From the NCBI GenBank assembly GCA_913056455.1, contig CAJXMJ010000002.1:725665-789664 (forward strand): DNA of 64,000 nt, in the 5' to 3' direction. Below the pieces are notes generated by a model, which did not search any database, was not told the origin of the DNA, and saw nothing but the letters and a program-made list of their open reading frames with translations. The stretch comes from an uncultured Fodinibius sp. (GTDB taxonomy: Bacteria > Bacteroidota > Rhodothermia > Balneolales > Balneolaceae). The position numbers and the translations under genes are program-made. Below, in pieces: positions 5,567 to 62,996 of this stretch. Each line of letters opens with the position of its first letter. Position 1 is the stretch's first letter.

Positions 5567-6184
5567 ATGACTTATTTAAAAGAGAATAACTTATTAATGT
5601 TTGTTCTATCGCTATGTATAGGATTGGTAATGGTAATAGGTTGTGAAGGACCGGAAGGTCCCCAAGGTCCAGCAGGACCGGAAGGACCACAAGGTCCACA
5701 GGGTGACCAAGGACCTCAGGGCGAAGAGGGAACAGCTAATGTAATTTACTCCGATTGGACAGATTTTGATGATTCTAACTGGAGTAGCCTGCAAAATGAT
5801 TTTGGAATTGATTACAGGGGATATCCGGTATCTGTTCCTGAGCTTGATTCTGCTATGGCTGCAACCGGAGTTGTAAAAGTTTATGTCTCATTTGTATGCT
5901 GTACCGATATTGATCCGCTTCCTGTTGTTATTGACAACGATAGTAAAGTGCGGTTTCAATATGAAGAAGAAGAAATTCAAATAAGATATCAACTCTTCCC
6001 TGACGCTTCGGGAGATCCCGGTACTTTTGGCAGTGGCAATAGGTATCGATATGTACTTATTCCAGGAGGGCAGTCTGCCAGTAAGACCAAAAATTATGAA
6101 AAAATGTCCTATGAAGAGCTTCAGCAGCGCTTCAATATTCCTGATGAAGGATCAGGAGTAATACGGAACGTCAGAACCAAATAA
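5567..6184 (+). CDS. Collagen-like lipoprotein
   Basis: Predicted surface lipoprotein of 205 residues. A signal peptide with lipobox ending VIGC places lipidated Cys at 26. It is followed at once by nine Gly-X-Y triplets (28-54), rich in GPQ and GPE, i.e. a short collagen-like stalk. The remaining 150 residues form a globular domain beginning ANVIYSDW. The neighbouring gene at 6531 has the same architecture and a related C-terminal domain with the same ANVI-x-S-x-W opening and a similar end, so the two are paralogues. Function unknown; trimeric adhesive stalks are the known role of such triplets in other bacteria. Confidence 0.85.
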   Translation: MTYLKENNLLMFVLSLCIGLVMVIGCEGPEGPQGPAGPEGPQGPQGDQGPQGEEGTANVIYSDWTDFDDSNWSSLQNDFGIDYRGYPVSVPELDSAMAATGVVKVYVSFVCCTDIDPLPVVIDNDSKVRFQYEEEEIQIRYQLFPDASGDPGTFGSGNRYRYVLIPGGQSASKTKNYEKMSYEELQQRFNIPDEGSGVIRNVRTK

Positions 6185-6210
6185 TTACTAATCCAACGTT
6201 AGCTGCTTTG

Positions 6211-6248
6211 AAAGGCTGTACTTCATTTTGAAGTACAGCCTTTTTATT
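6211..6248 (+). terminator. Strong intrinsic terminator after first collagen-like gene
   Basis: A perfect 14-bp stem (6211-6224 with 6230-6243), a 5-base ATTTT loop and a following T-rich tail. It lies 26 bases after the stop codon. Confidence 0.9.
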
Positions 6249-6530
6249 TGGAAGATCATAGAACAATTATGGGATTATAACACATCCTTCAAGTATTGTC
6301 TGGTAATAGTTACGAATAGGATAAGTGGAAATAATAATTTTTCATAGTAATCCCCTCTTTTTAGAGTTGTTATGTATCTCTAATGAAAAAAAGAGGCCTA
6401 TTGGCCCCCGGATAGCAGGAGAAAATACCTGCATTAGTTTGAGCTAATTCGGGATTGGCTTACGTATTAATAGGTGTAGCAGTGATTGGTTCAAAATCAC
6501 AATTATAAATTGAAAGAAATATCAAGAGAT
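6249..6530. other. Spacer between the two collagen-like genes
   Basis: With the preceding terminator this makes 346 bases without a gene. It contains a small hairpin (GCAGG at 6415-6419 with CCTGC at 6428-6432) and a GGCC-TATT-GGCC palindrome near 6395-6406. I see nothing else; the promoter of the second collagen-like gene should be here. Confidence 0.45.
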
Positions 6531-7523
6531 ATGGATAATTTGTTGAATATAAAGTTATATATTGTTAGACCATCTATTAAATTGCTGGTACTGATATGTA
6601 TGATAATAGGTGCCGGTTTATTAGCAGCATGTGAAGGGCCGGCCGGGCCTGAGGGGCCACAGGGGCAGCAAGGGTTGGTGGGTCCTGCTGGTGAGGATGG
6701 TAGCGAAATGTATGCCGGGGAAGGAGCCCCAGGGTCAGATATGGGAAGTAATGGTGACTACTATCTAGATAAGAATACAGGCGAAATTTATGGCCCGAAA
6801 ACAGACACCGGATGGGGAACACCCTTAATGTTGCGAGGAGAAGATGGCAAAGATGGCAGTGAAATACATGCAGGAAGCGGTTCTCCTGCAGATACCCTTG
6901 GTAGAGTTGGAGATTATTACCTCGATCGCAGTAGTACGAGACTATATGGACCTAAAACAGATAGTGGATGGAGCTCATTTGTTTATTTGAAAGGGCCAAA
7001 GGGAGATCCCGGCGAAGATGGTAACGCCAATGTTATATCCAGTGGCTGGAATCAAATTCCCGCAGGCGATTGGTCACAGAGTGGGGCGTATGCATCTCCT
7101 TTCGATATTTCTACTTATCCGATTACAACAGCCAGTGGAGGTTGGTTCAGCTTGAATTCCGTGGAGCAATTAAATGGTGCGGTCTTTGTGTACGTAAGGG
7201 GCCTCGGTAAGCAGTCAGGGGGTCGTGATACGGATGTGATACAACTGCCTACTCATGCCACTGTTTCCGGGGGCGGTGAGTCTGGCGGTATTGAATTACG
7301 TTTTACGCACGGCGGAGACCCCAATTACGCCATGTGGATTATGGTCAATGTTGGACTACAAAGTGGTACGTGGGATACCAGTTATATGATGAATACCTAT
7401 TTGCCGGATTTGGAGTTTAAAGCCGTAGTTATTCCTGCTACAACGTCTAAATCTAACAAAATGCCTCCAATGGACTATTCAGATTATGAGGCTGTAAAAG
7501 AATATTTTGATTTAGATAGCTAA
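6531..7523 (+). CDS. Collagen-like lipoprotein with internal repeats
   Basis: Predicted surface lipoprotein of 330 residues, paralogue of the preceding gene. I chose the ATG at 6531 over the in-frame TTG at 6486 because it leaves a normal signal peptide with lipidated C34 (GLLAAC). Gly-X-Y triplets follow the Cys and recur near 160-175 (GPKGDPGEDG). Between them are two copies of a unit of about 55 residues with the pattern GSE-AG-G-P...GDYYLD...YGPKTD-GW, a repeat known from collagen-like and tail-fibre-type proteins. The C-terminal globular domain starts NANVISSGW, matching the paralogue. Surface adhesion is an inference. Confidence 0.85.
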   Translation: MDNLLNIKLYIVRPSIKLLVLICMIIGAGLLAACEGPAGPEGPQGQQGLVGPAGEDGSEMYAGEGAPGSDMGSNGDYYLDKNTGEIYGPKTDTGWGTPLMLRGEDGKDGSEIHAGSGSPADTLGRVGDYYLDRSSTRLYGPKTDSGWSSFVYLKGPKGDPGEDGNANVISSGWNQIPAGDWSQSGAYASPFDISTYPITTASGGWFSLNSVEQLNGAVFVYVRGLGKQSGGRDTDVIQLPTHATVSGGGESGGIELRFTHGGDPNYAMWIMVNVGLQSGTWDTSYMMNTYLPDLEFKAVVIPATTSKSNKMPPMDYSDYEAVKEYFDLDS

Positions 7524-56671: not shown

Positions 56672-57289
56672 GTGAATGAAATATTAGAACGTATTAAAGA
56701 GGCATATCATTTAGAGACAGATGCGGAAGTTGCCGATTTTTTAGATATCAAACCGAGTACCCTAAGCATGCAGAAGAACAGGGGAAGGTTAGATCTCGAG
56801 AGAATAATTGAGAGATGTAGTGACTTAAATAAAAATTGGTTGCTGGATGGGGAAGGCAGGAAAAGAACAGTTGATGGGGCTTATACGCAAACGCCTATTC
56901 CAATTTATACCTCTTTGGATATAAAAGATCTGAAGCCTGATTTTAAAAACAGTCCAAAAGCGGGAGACATTTATACTGATATTTCCAATGGGCTTGGTGG
57001 ACTTTCGGAAAGGGACAATTTGATAGGTTACGTTAACTCCGGAAATGAGATGGCACCAATAATAAAAGAGAACGATATTGCTGTCATCAACCTTGGTGAA
57101 GAGCCTGTTCATGATGAAATATTTCTTATTGCTTCCTCCCATGAAGCTTCGTTACGACGTCTCCAAAAGGAACAGAATAAGTTAATTGCGGAATCCCAAA
57201 ATGGGAAGGGAACCCCTATCGATATTGACGTCAATGAACTCCACCGGTGTATTGGGAAGTTACTTTGGGTGATACGAAGAGTACAGTAA
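56672..57289 (+). CDS. CI-like repressor with S24 domain lacking catalytic residues
   Basis: 205-residue phage-type repressor with a GTG start. The N-terminal helix-turn-helix (about 15-40, DAEVADFLDIKPSTLSMQK) matches the Phage CI repressor family. The C-terminal part (about 110-205) is LexA/S24-like, yet the G-D-S-M nucleophile motif is G124-N-E126-M and the general-base Lys is R162. Self-cleavage on DNA damage is therefore unlikely, and the repressor would be controlled otherwise. No phage structural genes surround it. The target may be the divergent small HTH gene and itself. Confidence 0.8.
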   Translation: MNEILERIKEAYHLETDAEVADFLDIKPSTLSMQKNRGRLDLERIIERCSDLNKNWLLDGEGRKRTVDGAYTQTPIPIYTSLDIKDLKPDFKNSPKAGDIYTDISNGLGGLSERDNLIGYVNSGNEMAPIIKENDIAVINLGEEPVHDEIFLIASSHEASLRRLQKEQNKLIAESQNGKGTPIDIDVNELHRCIGKLLWVIRRVQ

Positions 57290-58346: not shown

Positions 58347-59087
58347 ATGGGTCAGTGGTTCACAAGATGTGCTACTTGTATAATAGTTGTGTTTTCGTGT
58401 TTATTCCTCTTCGGAGTAAATGAGTACGATCCGGAGCCCTTAACGTATGAAGTACAACCGGGCGATACCTTATATGAAATTGCAGCCGATTTCGGCAATT
58501 CTATCTGGTGGTTTGATATCTATAAGGCAAATGAAGAGAAGATTGATAATCCAAGATTTATCTTTCCCGGCCAAGAGTTAGAGATTCCCATCTATATTAC
58601 CCAGGATTTTCGGCTTCCTGTCACAACCGATGAGTTTGACAGAGTATTAGAAATGAGTAAGAAGTTTGAGCGTCAAGAGAAGAATAAAAAGCTTAAAAAG
58701 TTCCGTAAAGCCTTTAGTAAATTAGTTGAGAAAGGAGAAAAGAAAGAGAAGAACGTTTCCAGAGTAGAAGAATATGAGGGGCTGGGACTTGGCGGCTTGA
58801 TACTGGATGAAACCCGTAGCAAGATGGGCAACAATTTCTACTCGGTCTTCTACAAGCACTGGAAGGATCCAAAGGACGTACAGAATTTTACGATTACCGT
58901 TTCGGAACAGCCCATGCCTTCTCGAGGAACGATGGTACAGGTGGAAATTGACAACCAACTTGTGTTTAGGAATCGCCTTGAGCCGCGATACTACAAAACG
59001 GAGCAGGCGGCAAAACAGGCAGTGAAGATTTGCCAGCGCAGGCTTCAGCGAATCGTATCAAATGAAAATGAACTAGCAGGGTATTAA
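58347..59087 (+). CDS. csgE: LysM–CsgE fusion, curli assembly factor
   Basis: 246 residues. After a hydrophobic N-terminus (10-24, signal peptide or anchor) comes one LysM peptidoglycan-binding module (33-80, VQPGDTLYEIAADFG), a basic coiled-coil-like spacer (96-135) and a CsgE domain (142-234) with LILDETRSKMGNNFYSVFYKHW. Enterobacterial CsgE is about 130 residues with no LysM and caps the CsgG channel. Here the chaperone could be tethered to the wall, an inference. The csgF gene starts two bases after its stop. Confidence 0.85.
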   Translation: MGQWFTRCATCIIVVFSCLFLFGVNEYDPEPLTYEVQPGDTLYEIAADFGNSIWWFDIYKANEEKIDNPRFIFPGQELEIPIYITQDFRLPVTTDEFDRVLEMSKKFERQEKNKKLKKFRKAFSKLVEKGEKKEKNVSRVEEYEGLGLGGLILDETRSKMGNNFYSVFYKHWKDPKDVQNFTITVSEQPMPSRGTMVQVEIDNQLVFRNRLEPRYYKTEQAAKQAVKICQRRLQRIVSNENELAGY

Positions 59088-59089
59088 CC

Positions 59090-59551
59090 ATGAAGAGATT
59101 AATCACTACATTTTTTGCAACAGGGATTCTGGCCAGTTTGATGTTGCTGGCCCCGGGACAGGCAGATGCACAGGACTTTGTGTATGAACCGACGAATCCT
59201 GCCTTTGGAGGCAGCCCTGTGAATTACAGCTGGATGATGAATTCTGCCAACAGCCAGAATAAATTTCAGCGTTCTGGTAGTGGATTCAGCAGAGATCCGT
59301 TGGCTAACTTTGAAGAGTCTTTGCAACGACAGGTATTGTCACAATTGACGCGACAAATTATTGGGGATCGTTTCGGTGAAGGAGGTATTGATTTGAGTGA
59401 GCGGAGCAACTTTGAATTCGGGGAATTCAATATCAGTGTCAATCCCGGACCGGACGGTGTAAGTATTCAGATTCAGAATATATTATCCGGGGAATCGACG
59501 ACTGTAACCATACCGTCAGGTTTTAGCGGTGGGAATTTTGGAGGAAGTTAA
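59090..59551 (+). CDS. csgF: Curli assembly protein CsgF
   Basis: 153 residues with signal peptide (1-27). The mature N-terminus has the FVYEPTNPAFGGSP motif that in CsgF inserts into the CsgG pore, then a helical neck (about 65-95, FEESLQRQVLSQLTRQI) and a beta-rich head. It helps nucleate fibre growth at the channel exit. It directly follows the CsgE gene. Confidence 0.92.
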   Translation: MKRLITTFFATGILASLMLLAPGQADAQDFVYEPTNPAFGGSPVNYSWMMNSANSQNKFQRSGSGFSRDPLANFEESLQRQVLSQLTRQIIGDRFGEGGIDLSERSNFEFGEFNISVNPGPDGVSIQIQNILSGESTTVTIPSGFSGGNFGGS

Positions 59552-59621
59552 CGCGAAATTATTAACAAAAGAAGAGTTATAAATGAAATTGCACAAAGAA
59601 TTTAGGAGCTGAATCAAATAA

Positions 59622-59756
59622 GGAAGGCAGCACCAGGGGGTCTTCTCCAACCGAAGGGTTAGGAGAAGGGAGGACCTCTGATGCCGCCCATTGAAAATAT
59701 TAAAACATCTTAATATAGAAAGATGTGATCACTTCTTCAATGGGGTACCGCCTTCC
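59622..59756 (+). ncRNA. Candidate structured RNA (three-way junction) in the curli leader
   Basis: Complementary segments define three helices: P1 GGAAGGC/GCCTTCC (59622-59628 with 59750-59756); P2, an 11-bp stem with one bulge and a GAAG loop (59642-59652 with 59657-59668), extended by 59637-59641 with 59674-59678; P3 of nine perfect pairs (59687-59695 with 59736-59744), itself holding a 7-bp hairpin (59697-59703 with 59710-59716). All close onto P1. It lies between csgF and the fibre gene. Inside it, GGGAGG precedes an ATG at 59681 by seven bases. It matches no riboswitch class I know. Confidence 0.6.
59681..59713 (+). CDS. Possible 10-residue leader peptide
   Basis: ATG with GGGAGG seven bases upstream (59668-59673), coding MPPIENIKTS and a TAA. 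It lies within the candidate structured leader, so its translation would disrupt P3. Very short; chance is a fair alternative. Confidence 0.25.
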   Translation: MPPIENIKTS

Positions 59757-59775
59757 GTACTGTTCGTTCCTATGT

Positions 59776-59819
59776 GATCCGGAGATAAGCTCCCGGATCC
59801 TATTCCGAAAAACGGAATA
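59776..59819 (+). other. Two further hairpins upstream of the fibre gene
   Basis: GATCCGG/CCGGATC (59776-59782 with 59793-59799) and TATTCCG/CGGAATA (59801-59807 with 59813-59819, AAAAA loop) follow each other directly. Neither has a T run, so they are not simple terminators. They probably belong to the same leader RNA. Confidence 0.6.
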
Positions 59820-59883
59820 CTAATTAGTTGGCTTATTAAATCTTCAATTAATGTGAATAAAAACAACATAGGGGTAACCTATT

Positions 59884-60816
59884 ATGAAGAAGCTAACAAC
59901 ACTACTTTTTGTTCTGGTATTTGCCAGTTCAATGGCATTCGCTCAGAACAATTCTTCGGACTTGGATCAAGAGGGCACTGGTAATAGTGCTGACATTGAC
60001 CAAATATATGACGCTGGTCAATCTTCAGGCACAAATCATGCTATGGTTTATCAAGATGGACAGTCTAATGAGGTTCGAGGCCTGAACCAGAAGGGTGCCG
60101 GTAACTACTATGGTATAACCCAGATTGGTGAGGGTAACATTGTACAATCGCATCCTGAGCAAGGTGGCCAAGGTGGGGTCAACAGTTATGATGGCTTCAT
60201 CCAAATTAGTCAATTTGCTCTCGAAGGTGCAGATGGTAATAAAGTTTGGGACGCTGACCAAGCCGGTGAAGGAAACTTTTTAACCATCACACAAAATGGT
60301 GGAGACATTGCCAATGTCGAAGCTCAGGTATCAAAAGGTTCAGGTGAATCAGTTAATCAAATCTATATCACTCAAACGTTTGGAGATAATAAAGTGGGTG
60401 AATATAGTGATAATGGACCCGGTGCTTACCAAGAGGGTAGTGATAATGTTATGACTATTACCCAGAGTGGTGGTGCTTCTGCCGGAACAGAGAGCAAGAT
60501 GGTAAGTGGAGCTGACGATACATTTTTCAGAGGTAATGCTGAAGGTGGTCAAGCTCTTGTTCAGCTAGGTGAAATGAACTTATTGAATATTAACCAGAAT
60601 GGTGCCAGCAAAGTTGAGTATGCCATTCAAACAGATAATAGTAATTATAATGTAACTGGCTGGAATACAGCAACCATTTCACAAACTGGTGATGATCACA
60701 TGGTTGATCTTGAACAACACGGTGCTAATAAAGCAACAGTTACACAAACCGGTGGTAATCATTCGGCCTCTGTTTGGCAATCTGGTAGTAATACTGCAAC
60801 CATCACTCAAAACTAA
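59884..60816 (+). CDS. Curli fibre subunit (CsgA/CsgB-like)
   Basis: 310 residues: signal peptide (1-20) and a Gln/Asn/Gly-rich repeat region over the entire mature part. Imperfect units follow the curlin pattern with hxIxQxGxxN and related spacing (for instance ITQIGEGN, ITQNGG, ITQSGG, ISQTGDDH, VTQTGGN, ITQN at the end). About a dozen units can be counted, more than the five of E. coli CsgA, so the fibre rung number is larger. The gene has its own leader and a terminator. Major-subunit role is inferred from length and strength of the repeats. Confidence 0.88.
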   Translation: MKKLTTLLFVLVFASSMAFAQNNSSDLDQEGTGNSADIDQIYDAGQSSGTNHAMVYQDGQSNEVRGLNQKGAGNYYGITQIGEGNIVQSHPEQGGQGGVNSYDGFIQISQFALEGADGNKVWDADQAGEGNFLTITQNGGDIANVEAQVSKGSGESVNQIYITQTFGDNKVGEYSDNGPGAYQEGSDNVMTITQSGGASAGTESKMVSGADDTFFRGNAEGGQALVQLGEMNLLNINQNGASKVEYAIQTDNSNYNVTGWNTATISQTGDDHMVDLEQHGANKATVTQTGGNHSASVWQSGSNTATITQN

Positions 60817-60829
60817 TAGAATCTAAAAG

Positions 60830-60863
60830 TGACTTGAAGGGAAAGGGATTTCCTTTCAAGTCA
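60830..60863 (+). other. Hairpin downstream of the fibre gene
   Basis: A 12-bp stem (60830-60841 with 60852-60863, including wobble) with no T run. Could protect the 3' end of the fibre mRNA; the true terminator is the next hairpin. Confidence 0.5.
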
Positions 60864-60888
60864 ATCACTACAATAAATAAAATTATCG

Positions 60889-60926
60889 ACCGGAGAGGAT
60901 GGAAAACTCCTCTCTCGGTTTTCTTT
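60889..60926 (+). terminator. Intrinsic terminator between fibre gene and csgG
   Basis: An 11-bp stem with one bulge (60889-60899 with 60908-60919), 8-base loop, and T-rich tail TTTTCTTT. It lies 51 bases before the csgG start and should separate expression levels of fibre and channel. Confidence 0.85.
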
Positions 60927-60977
60927 AAACAGCAAGATATTATTTTAACAAACTGTAATTTCACGTTATCAAATTTA

Positions 60978-62348
60978 ATGCATAGTAAAGCAGTTACGAT
61001 CTGCGGCATATTTATAGTGGTATTCATGTTTGGCTCTTGCACGACAGCCTTACAACCGTTGGAAACCGAGCGGGTAAAGCCGGGCATTCAAAGCAAGGTA
61101 CATGACGAATTAACCGAAATGCCCGAGCCCCAAAGCAAGGTGGTGGCGGCTGTATATAGGTTCCGAGACCAGACGGGGCAGTACAAACCCTCGGAACGCG
61201 GTGCAAGTTGGTCAACAGCCGTAACGCAGGGCGCAACATCCATCCTTATTAAGTCGATGGAAGATTCCGGATGGTTTACACCCATCGAGCGAGCGGGAGT
61301 TTCGAACCTGCTTAACGAGCGCCAGATTATTCAAAAGACACGCCAGCAAAATAACCAAAGTGGGCAGCTACCTCCCATGTTGTTTGCCGGCGTCATTCTG
61401 GAAGGCGGTATTATTGGTTATGATACGAATGTAATTACCGGGGGTGGGGGTGCGCGACTGCTTGGTACCGGCGCTTCAGGTCAGTATCGTAAAGATCAGG
61501 TAACGATTTACCTGCGTGCCGTTTCCACCAAAACAGGAAAGGTGCTCGAAACCGTGCATACCACCAAGTCCATTATATCCCAGGAGCTCCAAAGTGGAGC
61601 GTTCCGCTACATCGATACGAATAGGTTGCTCGAGGCCGAAGCGGGATTTACCTATAACGAACCGCCAGTGATGGCCGTAACAGAAGCCATTGACGAAGCG
61701 GTGAAAATGCTAGTTATTAATGGAGAAAAACAGGGAATTTGGAGTGCCCAGGATACGACCGAATTCAACCAGTATGTTGAAAAATTTGAAGAGAAAAAGG
61801 AGTGGGAGCAGCGGGCGCAAACCGACTATTTTGGGTTGAACAACAATGAAAAACTCCGGTCAGGATTAAATGTCTCTGGAAATATTATGTTTGGCAGTCA
61901 TATAGGCAGTTATCCTTCGGCTAATAATGAGATAGGGGCTTCTCTGAAAGCTGAATACTTTTTTAGTCCCCAATTTTCGCTAAAAGGAAATCTGGAACGA
62001 TCGAATGTGGGAGCACAAAAGGTGTTTTCAAGACCTTATACGGCCTTTGATGTAACAGTTAATAAATACTTTATGCCTAATTTAAAGTTTTCACCCTTTA
62101 TTGGAATTGGAGCCGGAAATATTACCTACGACCGTAAACCTAAATTTTCGAATAGGGGATATTTTCCAACGGTATCTGCCGAAGCGGGATTGGATTACCG
62201 GATATCAGAACGAATTGGAGTGCAGGTGGGATTTAATTATCGTTATTTGATTAGGGATGGCATTGATGGAATAAGTAAGGGTACAATACATGATCAGACA
62301 TGGAACGTAAGTACCGGCGTAAGTTATTCGCCGAAGTTTTTGCAATAA
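60978..62348 (+). CDS. csgG: CsgG curli secretion channel with C-terminal barrel domain
   Basis: 456 residues from the ATG at 60978; the longer TTG-initiated frame would run through the terminator and hides the lipoprotein signal. Lipidated Cys is C21 (MFGSC). The CsgG fold (about 42-255) has VVAAVYRFRDQTGQYKPS, MEDSGWFTPIERAGVSNLLNE and the pore hairpin region YLRAVSTKTGKVLETV. E. coli CsgG is 277 residues; here about 160 more follow (295-456) with the strand pattern of an OmpA-like barrel ending VSTGVSYSPKF. It exports curli subunits through the outer membrane. Confidence 0.92.
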   Translation: MHSKAVTICGIFIVVFMFGSCTTALQPLETERVKPGIQSKVHDELTEMPEPQSKVVAAVYRFRDQTGQYKPSERGASWSTAVTQGATSILIKSMEDSGWFTPIERAGVSNLLNERQIIQKTRQQNNQSGQLPPMLFAGVILEGGIIGYDTNVITGGGGARLLGTGASGQYRKDQVTIYLRAVSTKTGKVLETVHTTKSIISQELQSGAFRYIDTNRLLEAEAGFTYNEPPVMAVTEAIDEAVKMLVINGEKQGIWSAQDTTEFNQYVEKFEEKKEWEQRAQTDYFGLNNNEKLRSGLNVSGNIMFGSHIGSYPSANNEIGASLKAEYFFSPQFSLKGNLERSNVGAQKVFSRPYTAFDVTVNKYFMPNLKFSPFIGIGAGNITYDRKPKFSNRGYFPTVSAEAGLDYRISERIGVQVGFNYRYLIRDGIDGISKGTIHDQTWNVSTGVSYSPKFLQ

Positions 62349-62411: not shown

Positions 62412-62996
62412 ATGAAATTACGCAAATTACTAATTACGGTCTTTGCAATCCTATTTATGGGTTTTGGGACAGCTTTTGGACAAGAAGACGAAAGAGAAGG
62501 TCAAGCAATTAACAAACCATTTGCAATAGAAGATCTTAGTAACCCAGGAATAGAACACAACAACGCATTTACGGAGTTTGGGCTACAATATTTCCTGTCA
62601 TTTGGTTTCAATATTCCAGAAAATAATGTTGGGTCAGGAGGAAATGTGGCAATTATTGAGCAGGTCGGTGTCGAGAATAGAGCTGAGTTAACCCAAAATG
62701 GAAGTAACCTTTTTGGCAAGATATATCAAGAGGGAAACTTGAATACCGCGCTTGTTGAACAAAAAGGTAACCAACTTATTTCGATAGTAAGTATGCAAGG
62801 GAATAACAACTATTTGGATTTTATGCAGGACGCAGATAACAAGGGAGCATATTTCCAATTTCACGGTAATAATATGCAGTTCAATGCTAAACAGACTGGT
62901 TCTAACTTTTCATTATCACACCGAAATTCCAGTATACCTGCTATCAATATTGAAACAACCCGTCAGTCCCTGCCAATAATCATTAGTAATCATTAA
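62412..62996 (+). CDS. Curlin-repeat protein, minor subunit candidate (CsgB-like)
   Basis: 194 residues with signal peptide (1-23). The mature N-terminus (24-75) is non-repetitive; after it come curlin-type units such as VAIIEQVGVENRAELTQNG, NTALVEQKGN and NAKQTGSN. Repeats are fewer and less regular than in the fibre gene, so a nucleator role like CsgB is plausible. An AAGGAGG site lies 10 bases before the ATG. Confidence 0.82.
   Translation: MKLRKLLITVFAILFMGFGTAFGQEDEREGQAINKPFAIEDLSNPGIEHNNAFTEFGLQYFLSFGFNIPENNVGSGGNVAIIEQVGVENRAELTQNGSNLFGKIYQEGNLNTALVEQKGNQLISIVSMQGNNNYLDFMQDADNKGAYFQFHGNNMQFNAKQTGSNFSLSHRNSSIPAINIETTRQSLPIIISNH

Follow-up and report, generated by a model that had tools for sequence, protein, structure and literature searches.

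A structured element conserved beside curlin genes of Balneolales, with one helix seemingly constrained as minus-strand RNA

What does the long gap ahead of a curli fibre gene carry, and on which strand does it act? The question is raised by the csg cluster of an uncultured Fodinibius sp., which lies in a window of 64,000 nucleotides (the whole stretch of DNA that was analyzed, to which all positions given here refer unless a locus is named). The genes stand in the order csgE, csgF, a 332-base gap, curlin, csgG and a second curlin-repeat gene (Table 1). Curli are produced in large amounts and, to our knowledge, little is known about their control outside enteric bacteria. A first-pass annotation had described the gap as a highly structured leader RNA, with a closed three-way junction of exactly complementary strands (P1, P2 and P3) and two further hairpins, and its position before the fibre gene had suggested regulation. 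Upstream of the cluster, at 56672-57286, there is a regulator of the CI-repressor/S24-peptidase type (Phage_CI_repr, Peptidase_S24).

Table 1. Positions of the csg genes and of the helices, motifs and putative transcript in and around the csgF-curlin gap
Feature	Positions	Strand	Remarks
csgE	58347-59087		First gene of the csg cluster
csgF, upstream neighbour	59090-59551	+	Pfam CsgF PF10614, 9.7e-38
csgF-curlin gap	59552-59883		332 bases
P0a 5' strand, TAGGAGC	59603-59609	+	Partner 59766-59772; 80.3% of cells paired in 21 hand-aligned rows, the alignment leaning towards structure
Putative transcript, about 100 nt	59606-59705	-	From promoter-like motif, hairpin and tail; ends estimated
T-rich tail TTCCTTATTTGA after the P2 stem, terminator-like	59614-59625	-	7 T in 12 nt; on plus, 4 T in the 12 nt after P2
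P0b 5' strand (outer part of the P1 first annotated)	59620-59625	+	Partner 59753-59758
P2 hairpin with inner stem P2b, core of the putative minus-strand RNA	59626-59688	-	
P3 hairpin, overlapping the minus-strand promoter-like motif	59689-59742	+	CATTGA/TCAATG, versus CGTTGA/TCAACG in relatives
Promoter-like TTGAAG-N17-TATATT, inside the P3 first annotated	59712-59740	-	In the consensus scan list
P0b/P0a 3' strand, including the anti-Shine-Dalgarno-like TTCCTA	59753-59772	+	Alternative partner CATAGGGG
P4 hairpin	59776-59799	+	Fold; C-G to U-A change within Fodinibius
P5 hairpin	59801-59819	+	Fold
CATAGGGG, ribosome-site region of curlin	59867-59874	+	Complementary, G·U included, to TTCCTATG at 59767-59774
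Curlin fibre gene, downstream neighbour and likely target	59884-60816	+	Curlin_rpt PF07012, 2.2e-19
csgG	60834-62348		After the curlin fibre gene
Second curlin-repeat gene	62412-62996		After csgG

The gap between csgF and the fibre gene does fold far beyond chance, with a minimum free energy of -101.6 kcal/mol (z -4.64) that none of 100 shuffles reaches. P1 (GGAAGGC 59622-59628 / GCCTTCC 59750-59756), P3 (CATTGA 59689-59694 / TCAATG 59737-59742) and the two downstream hairpins P4 and P5 (jointly z -5.25) are present as first drawn, the GGC of P1 being equally able to lengthen P2, but the exactness of P2 fails on the plus strand, where A·C and C·A mismatches are found. The statement that nothing else in the window is as structured holds in part. 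A screen of 1596 segments of 170 nt on the plus strand ranked energy against G+C and shuffled the 60 most extreme; 59601-59770 had the lowest energy (-66.3) among the 16 segments listed, but was third by z (-5.5). Two overlapping segments in 6081-6290 outrank it by z (-6.9 and -6.4) and contain an ordinary intrinsic terminator. This strong terminator, at about 6211-6245, lies inside the top-z segment of those scored and follows the ORF 5567-6184, which together with the adjacent ORF 6486-7523 encodes collagen-like GPxGPQGP repeats and a lipoprotein-like start.

The annotation had found no match of the structure to TPP, c-di-GMP, purine, cobalamin or glycine elements, and the Rfam check agrees: Rfam 15 gave no match at gathering score over the whole window on both strands. 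Around the gap (59400-60000), with E up to 10, there were three weak and unrelated matches (E 0.96-8.1), and on 10 related loci one tRNA was found and nothing else. No description of the element was found in those parts of the open-access literature that were available to us, and the terms looked up in PMC6429828 and PMC2864571 gave no mention of it there.

Relatives of the element were found by several searches. In a DNA search of 92 genomes of the family, two carry a relative over the full length and at the corresponding place (84 and 82%), and a match of 103 bases (77%) in a different genus precedes a curlin-like gene on a different contig from csgF. Weak DNA matches in G010, G015, G028, G059, G068, G085 and G088 were dropped, their 3-kb loci having no curlin-like ORF. 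Twelve elements were collected from csgF-curlin and csgG-curlin gaps and made into a covariance model (R2). Of the 25 rows that it gave on 128 genomes of the order at E<=0.5, 22 are elements, spread over 18 genomes; two others are reverse-strand shadows, and the last (L101) is a terminator falsely matched. Ten of the 22 elements were absent from the set used to build the model. From sequence and neighbours, matches L046-L051 of model R1 were judged to be chance or terminators, and L052 was a reverse-strand shadow. Model R3 was applied to 395 genomes of the phylum with nine candidates scored per genome, and 10 had a match, all in the order of the window; R3 missed G012, an element carrier, so distant copies are not excluded by this search. 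On 80 csgF loci the same model gave 13 rows, namely 12 elements in 11 loci, apparently all from genomes already found (L122, labelled Bacteroidetes only, being taken for G104), and one reverse shadow. A P2-like sequence that R3 did not report was seen by eye in L123 (Balneolales). All three models represent the plus strand.

The element is tied to curlin genes. Downstream of 21 of the 22 elements there is an ORF recognized as curlin-like, mostly from its repeat pattern and otherwise by protein search, not by Pfam, and the remaining element is at a contig end after csgG; in G037b a second copy sits between the element and its ORF. Within the family, 15 of the 18 genomes with csgF have the element, and it is absent from all 74 in which csgF was not found (Fisher p 1.2e-14, kinship ignored). 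The exceptions are G068 (Rhodohalobacter sulfatireducens), where, according to which start codon is taken, just 22 to 61 nt separate csgG from curlin, and G027 and G078, whose contigs stop short of the relevant place. The position of the element tracks the curlin gene rather than csgG, since it occupies the csgF-curlin gap in the window and in five relatives, and elsewhere follows csgG or a csgE-like ORF. An extra copy precedes the second curlin gene of G016, two tandem copies stand before one gene in G037, and a second copy was identified by eye in the gap of G062. Other curlin genes in tandem arrays have gaps of 61-127 nt instead of the element, several with simple hairpins. The stand-alone curlin locus of G037 is preceded (L012 1-840) by an array of near-identical repeats resembling pieces of tRNA, with one tRNA match at 364-435 on the minus strand.

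Such a distribution bears on whether the element could be mobile. P0, the outermost helix, forms inverted repeats at the ends of the element, and together with the tandem copies in two genomes this would suit a MITE or REP-like inverted-repeat element. Dispersed copies were not found, however: the genome of the window has one significant copy, all 22 accepted elements in the 128 genomes are at curlin genes or at the contig end after csgG, and 50,697 phage records contain no match. A mobile origin is thus very improbable.

The structure is conserved across Balneolales and it covaries. The unbiased evidence for covariation comes from RNAalifold on the untouched MAFFT alignment of 7 sequences, which gave 34 pairs, 11 of them with changes on both sides. 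A hand alignment of 21 rows, with loops trimmed or padded with N, was also evaluated, and its figures lean towards structure because the rows were aligned by structure: pairing holds in 82.7% of 819 cells, a share that falls to 34-49% with one strand slid and to 65.0% after shuffling, and double changes are found in 33 of 39 pairs, with 169 double-change cells against 63.5 in shuffles, all counts ignoring relatedness among the sequences. Further pair types in these rows are not conspicuous in number, at 67 against 62.7 in shuffles, 49 of 500 shuffles being as high. P0a is nearly fixed as GGAG/CTCC, while P0b covaries freely, with changes on both sides in 6 of its 6 pairs in the hand-aligned rows. 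By the comparison of csgF-fibre gaps and the covariance model, then, the element is kept in related genomes with covariation, and no confident Rfam match competes with it; in these respects the first-pass annotation was borne out.

The strand is a different matter, and P2 is the helix that speaks to it. Its ten basal pairs give 210 cells over the 21 rows. Watson-Crick pairs fill 155 of these and A·C or C·A the remaining 55, with no G·U or any other combination; A·C is seen in nine of the ten columns and G·U in none, and within the columns it is A·C that connects the A-U and G-C forms. A G·U wobble is the normal intermediate between A-U and G-C pairs. Because an A·C on the plus strand is a G·U on the minus strand, all 210 cells of P2 pair on the minus strand. 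Over all helices of the same structure-guided alignment, 734 of 819 cells are standard pairs on the minus strand versus 677 on the plus. The ratios of G·U to A·C cells on the plus strand are 5:0 in P3, whose pairs were chosen with plus folds in view, 7:6 in P0a and 3:5 in P0b, which favours plus or leaves the strand undecided; a constraint on the strand opposite to the fibre gene is seen for P2 and not for P0 or P3. The mismatches could be read as pH-sensing A+·C pairs, but this was put aside, since they change position from one lineage to the next and yet remain A·C; a coding role on the minus strand was also set aside, since the ORFs there differ between species.

Folding energies point mostly in the same direction. 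Consensus folds, for which the alignments were remade for each strand and the hand structure was not supplied, favour the minus strand in two of three groups (-26.2 minus versus -11.4 plus for 9 group B sequences, and -35.0 versus -21.2 for 5 loci of Salinivenus/Rhodothermaceae type), while group A, to which the window belongs, is slightly better on the plus (-27.2 versus -23.6). This goes against the annotated leader strand in the first two groups. Single folds favour minus in 15 of 20 cores (sums -1248 minus versus -1105 plus), and 13 of 20 have their lower z-score on that strand, the plus fold being better in the core of the window (-71.6 versus -69.3) and in G019, G014, G011 and G017. The segment of the putative transcript folds at -37.3 kcal/mol (z -4.0) on the minus strand and at -33.7 (z -3.0) on the plus. 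For P4 and P5 the summed energies (-551 plus, -530 minus) leave the strand undecided. The simplest reading is that P2 would be constrained as minus-strand RNA, and that P0, perhaps with P3, P4 and P5, would matter in the plus-strand leader or as DNA.

A P2 of the same kind (CGACGCTCGCGG / CCCACGARCGYCG) is present between csgG and curlin at the five Salinivenus/Rhodothermaceae-type loci (L119 from an uncultured Rhodothermaceae, L128 and L130 from Salinivenus, L124 and L126 labelled Bacteroidetes only), which were recognized by reading the gaps. Their P2 mismatches on the plus strand are exclusively A·C, and there is a T-run on the minus strand. Seven loci entered a no-filter search with R3; two of these, L118 and L125, lack the P2 motif by eye, and in-place matches were obtained for L126 and L119 only, neither significant (E 0.58 and 0.92), so that homology rests on the shared P2 sequence and pairing. 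On this basis the P2 of the five loci is likely homologous to the Balneolales element.

What follows P2 on the minus strand resembles the end of a transcript. Among the 12 nt past the P2 stem, T averages 7.3 on minus versus 3.1 on plus, with minus higher in 26 of 26 elements; the minus tail of G037c has 2 T of 12. The stem followed by a T-run that defines an intrinsic terminator is found on the minus strand, and several Balneolales elements have T-runs also after P0b on the plus. A conserved terminator or insulator, ending minus-strand transcription, and perhaps that of csgG as well, with no regulatory RNA function, would account for these T-runs, and generic terminators elsewhere did match the model weakly (L049, L051/L101). 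The element shares with intrinsic terminators the stem and T-rich tail on the minus strand, but differs from them in its conserved stem sequence, its inner stem P2b and its location, as the accepted matches are at curlin genes only; conservation of the stem, P2b and outer P0 across genera is unexpected for a plain terminator, and this explanation seems to us quite unlikely.

A promoter-like motif lies on the other side of P2. A consensus scan had the copy of the window before the targeted look, the yield of that scan in the region being at chance (10 versus 8.6 expected). On the minus strand, TTGAA(G/C)-N17-TAnnTT is present in 7 of 7 group A elements and T(A/G)G..(T/A)-N17-TAnnTT in 9 of 9 of group B. 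In the common form TDG-N20-TAnnTT, defined post hoc after the alignments had been viewed, the motif occurs on minus in 16 of 21 elements, on the plus of the same stretches in 0 of 21, and in 0.2-5% of shuffles. Among the 21 elements scanned it is missing from G016, G018, G030, G016b and G037c, and no TAnnTT was found in the five Salinivenus/Rhodothermaceae-type loci. The 55 A·C to 0 G·U cells of P2, the tail in 26 of 26 and the motif in 16 of 21 together oppose a plain mRNA leader.

P0 lies outside the putative transcript, and its covariation therefore needs a separate explanation. For the 3' strand of P0, the ribosome site of the same leader is a better partner than sites swapped in from other leaders (p 0.008 over 20 leaders, 0.04 over the 16 left once near copies are removed, 0.23 outside Fodinibius/G037), while in G011, G017, G030, G104, G061 and G062 the complementarity is no better than swapped. 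GGAGTAA is common to the P0 5' strand and the ribosome site in G016 and G018. In the predicted ensembles of G018 and G016b, and partly in those of G067 and G041, the P0 3' strand takes up the site, but in the window P0 is closed (mean pair probability 0.79) and the site unpaired with it. A possible ORF of nine codons on the plus strand (ATG...TGA, 59583-59612) stops just past the P0a 5' strand and has counterparts in G019, G014 and G011; it might explain the conserved AATTGC ahead of P0. In seven group B loci (L064, L070, L081, L083, L087, L088 and L097) there is a hairpin of the CTCAC-loop-GTGAG type (P4) between the element and curlin, with a variable loop and a CTCGC variant in L070.

These contacts would fit a riboswitch-like switch in the plus-strand leader, in which P0 closes an aptamer-like three-way junction and its 3' strand (CTCC), once P0 opens, blocks the Shine-Dalgarno sequence of curlin. 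The preference of P0 for its own site, the shared GGAGTAA, the ensembles of the four genomes named and the covariation of P0 are all consistent with it, as are the better plus fold of the window core, the tandem copies before one gene in G037 (and, by eye, in G062) and the location of the element 5' of curlin genes, even a stand-alone one. Riboswitches are also known at curli genes elsewhere: PMC9481103 describes tandem glycine/c-di-GMP-I riboswitches near csgG. The element resembles them as structured RNA at curli genes with tandem copies possible, but it has no Rfam match to either class and the strand evidence opposes an mRNA aptamer. The P2 signature, the T-rich tail on minus, the six genomes and the p of 0.23 outside Fodinibius/G037, and the closed P0 in the window ensemble all weigh against such a switch, which we regard as doubtful. 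Ligand sensing, one of the roles first suggested, gained no positive support.

A regulatory role of the element is nonetheless likely, because it is conserved, covaries and is tied to curlin genes; to this extent the first proposal of a regulatory structured leader survives, but its plain equation of the conserved RNA with the mRNA leader is not supported. From the strand signature of P2, the T-rich tail and the promoter-like motif, we give about an even chance to a cis-encoded antisense RNA whose target would be the curlin leader and whose effect would more likely be repression. We infer its transcription, its action on curlin and the sign of that action from the sequence. A small RNA gene would be nested on the minus strand in the region upstream of curlin, and a sigma70-like promoter inside P3, pointing to the left and away from curlin, would drive it. 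Its product, about 100 nt in length, would fold into a single long hairpin (P2 with the inner P2b) and end ahead of csgF or csgG in a terminator-like tail rich in U. As a cis-encoded RNA, it would have full complementarity to whatever plus-strand transcript passes through the curlin leader, and by pairing with that leader it could lower curlin output. The plus-strand leader, framed by P0, whose 3' strand could also cover the ribosome site, would be the possible target, and a plus-strand fold of P0, P4 and P5 may thus exist beside the minus-strand RNA.

Direct contact between the putative minus-strand RNA and curlin starts was also considered. In G117 its complementarity to two curlin start sites is perfect over 12 nt, and one of these sites belongs to a second curlin gene that has no model match beside it; in G124 there are 9 nt of complementarity to a curlin start. 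Exact copies of GGYGACCAACCATG in eight genomes number four, all at curlin-like starts; with one mismatch or less there are 24 matches versus 17 for the reversed control, so that the exact ones alone stand out. In G062 the site is at the curlin start, yet the RNA loop is in the inverse sense. The overall permutation p is 0.02-0.04. Outside G117 and G124 the other genomes are at background, in a comparison whose controls still include some windows overlapping the RNA, and this pairing was rejected as a general mechanism. The sequence AAGGTGACCAACCATG is an identical start context at four curlin-like genes in three genomes (L202, L194, L195, L190).

The antisense arrangement has known parallels. 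In CopA/CopT and RNAI/RNAII, a short hairpin RNA with its own promoter and terminator lies opposite the leader of the gene that it controls. The element is similar in having a putative hairpin RNA opposite a leader, a likeness of architecture, but it is chromosomal and beside an amyloid fibre gene, and its interaction is putative. In enteric bacteria, the trans-encoded small RNAs OmrA/B, McaS and RprA act on the regulator csgD. Both cases would be small-RNA control of curli, putatively so for the element, but here the RNA gene adjoins the fibre gene itself.

We suggest, only tentatively, that the element belongs to a new amyloid-dedicated RNA family common to Balneolales and Rhodothermales, in which an antisense gene is nested in the leader, pairing of the hairpin with P2 sets whether P0 is closed or the ribosome site covered, and the whole has been duplicated together with curlin genes. 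The pattern of A·C versus G·U can indicate, with genome sequences as the sole data, which strand an RNA is read from, here contrary to the first reading. For Balneolota, a curlin-linked RNA that has no Rfam match is a defined candidate for an element of curli control.
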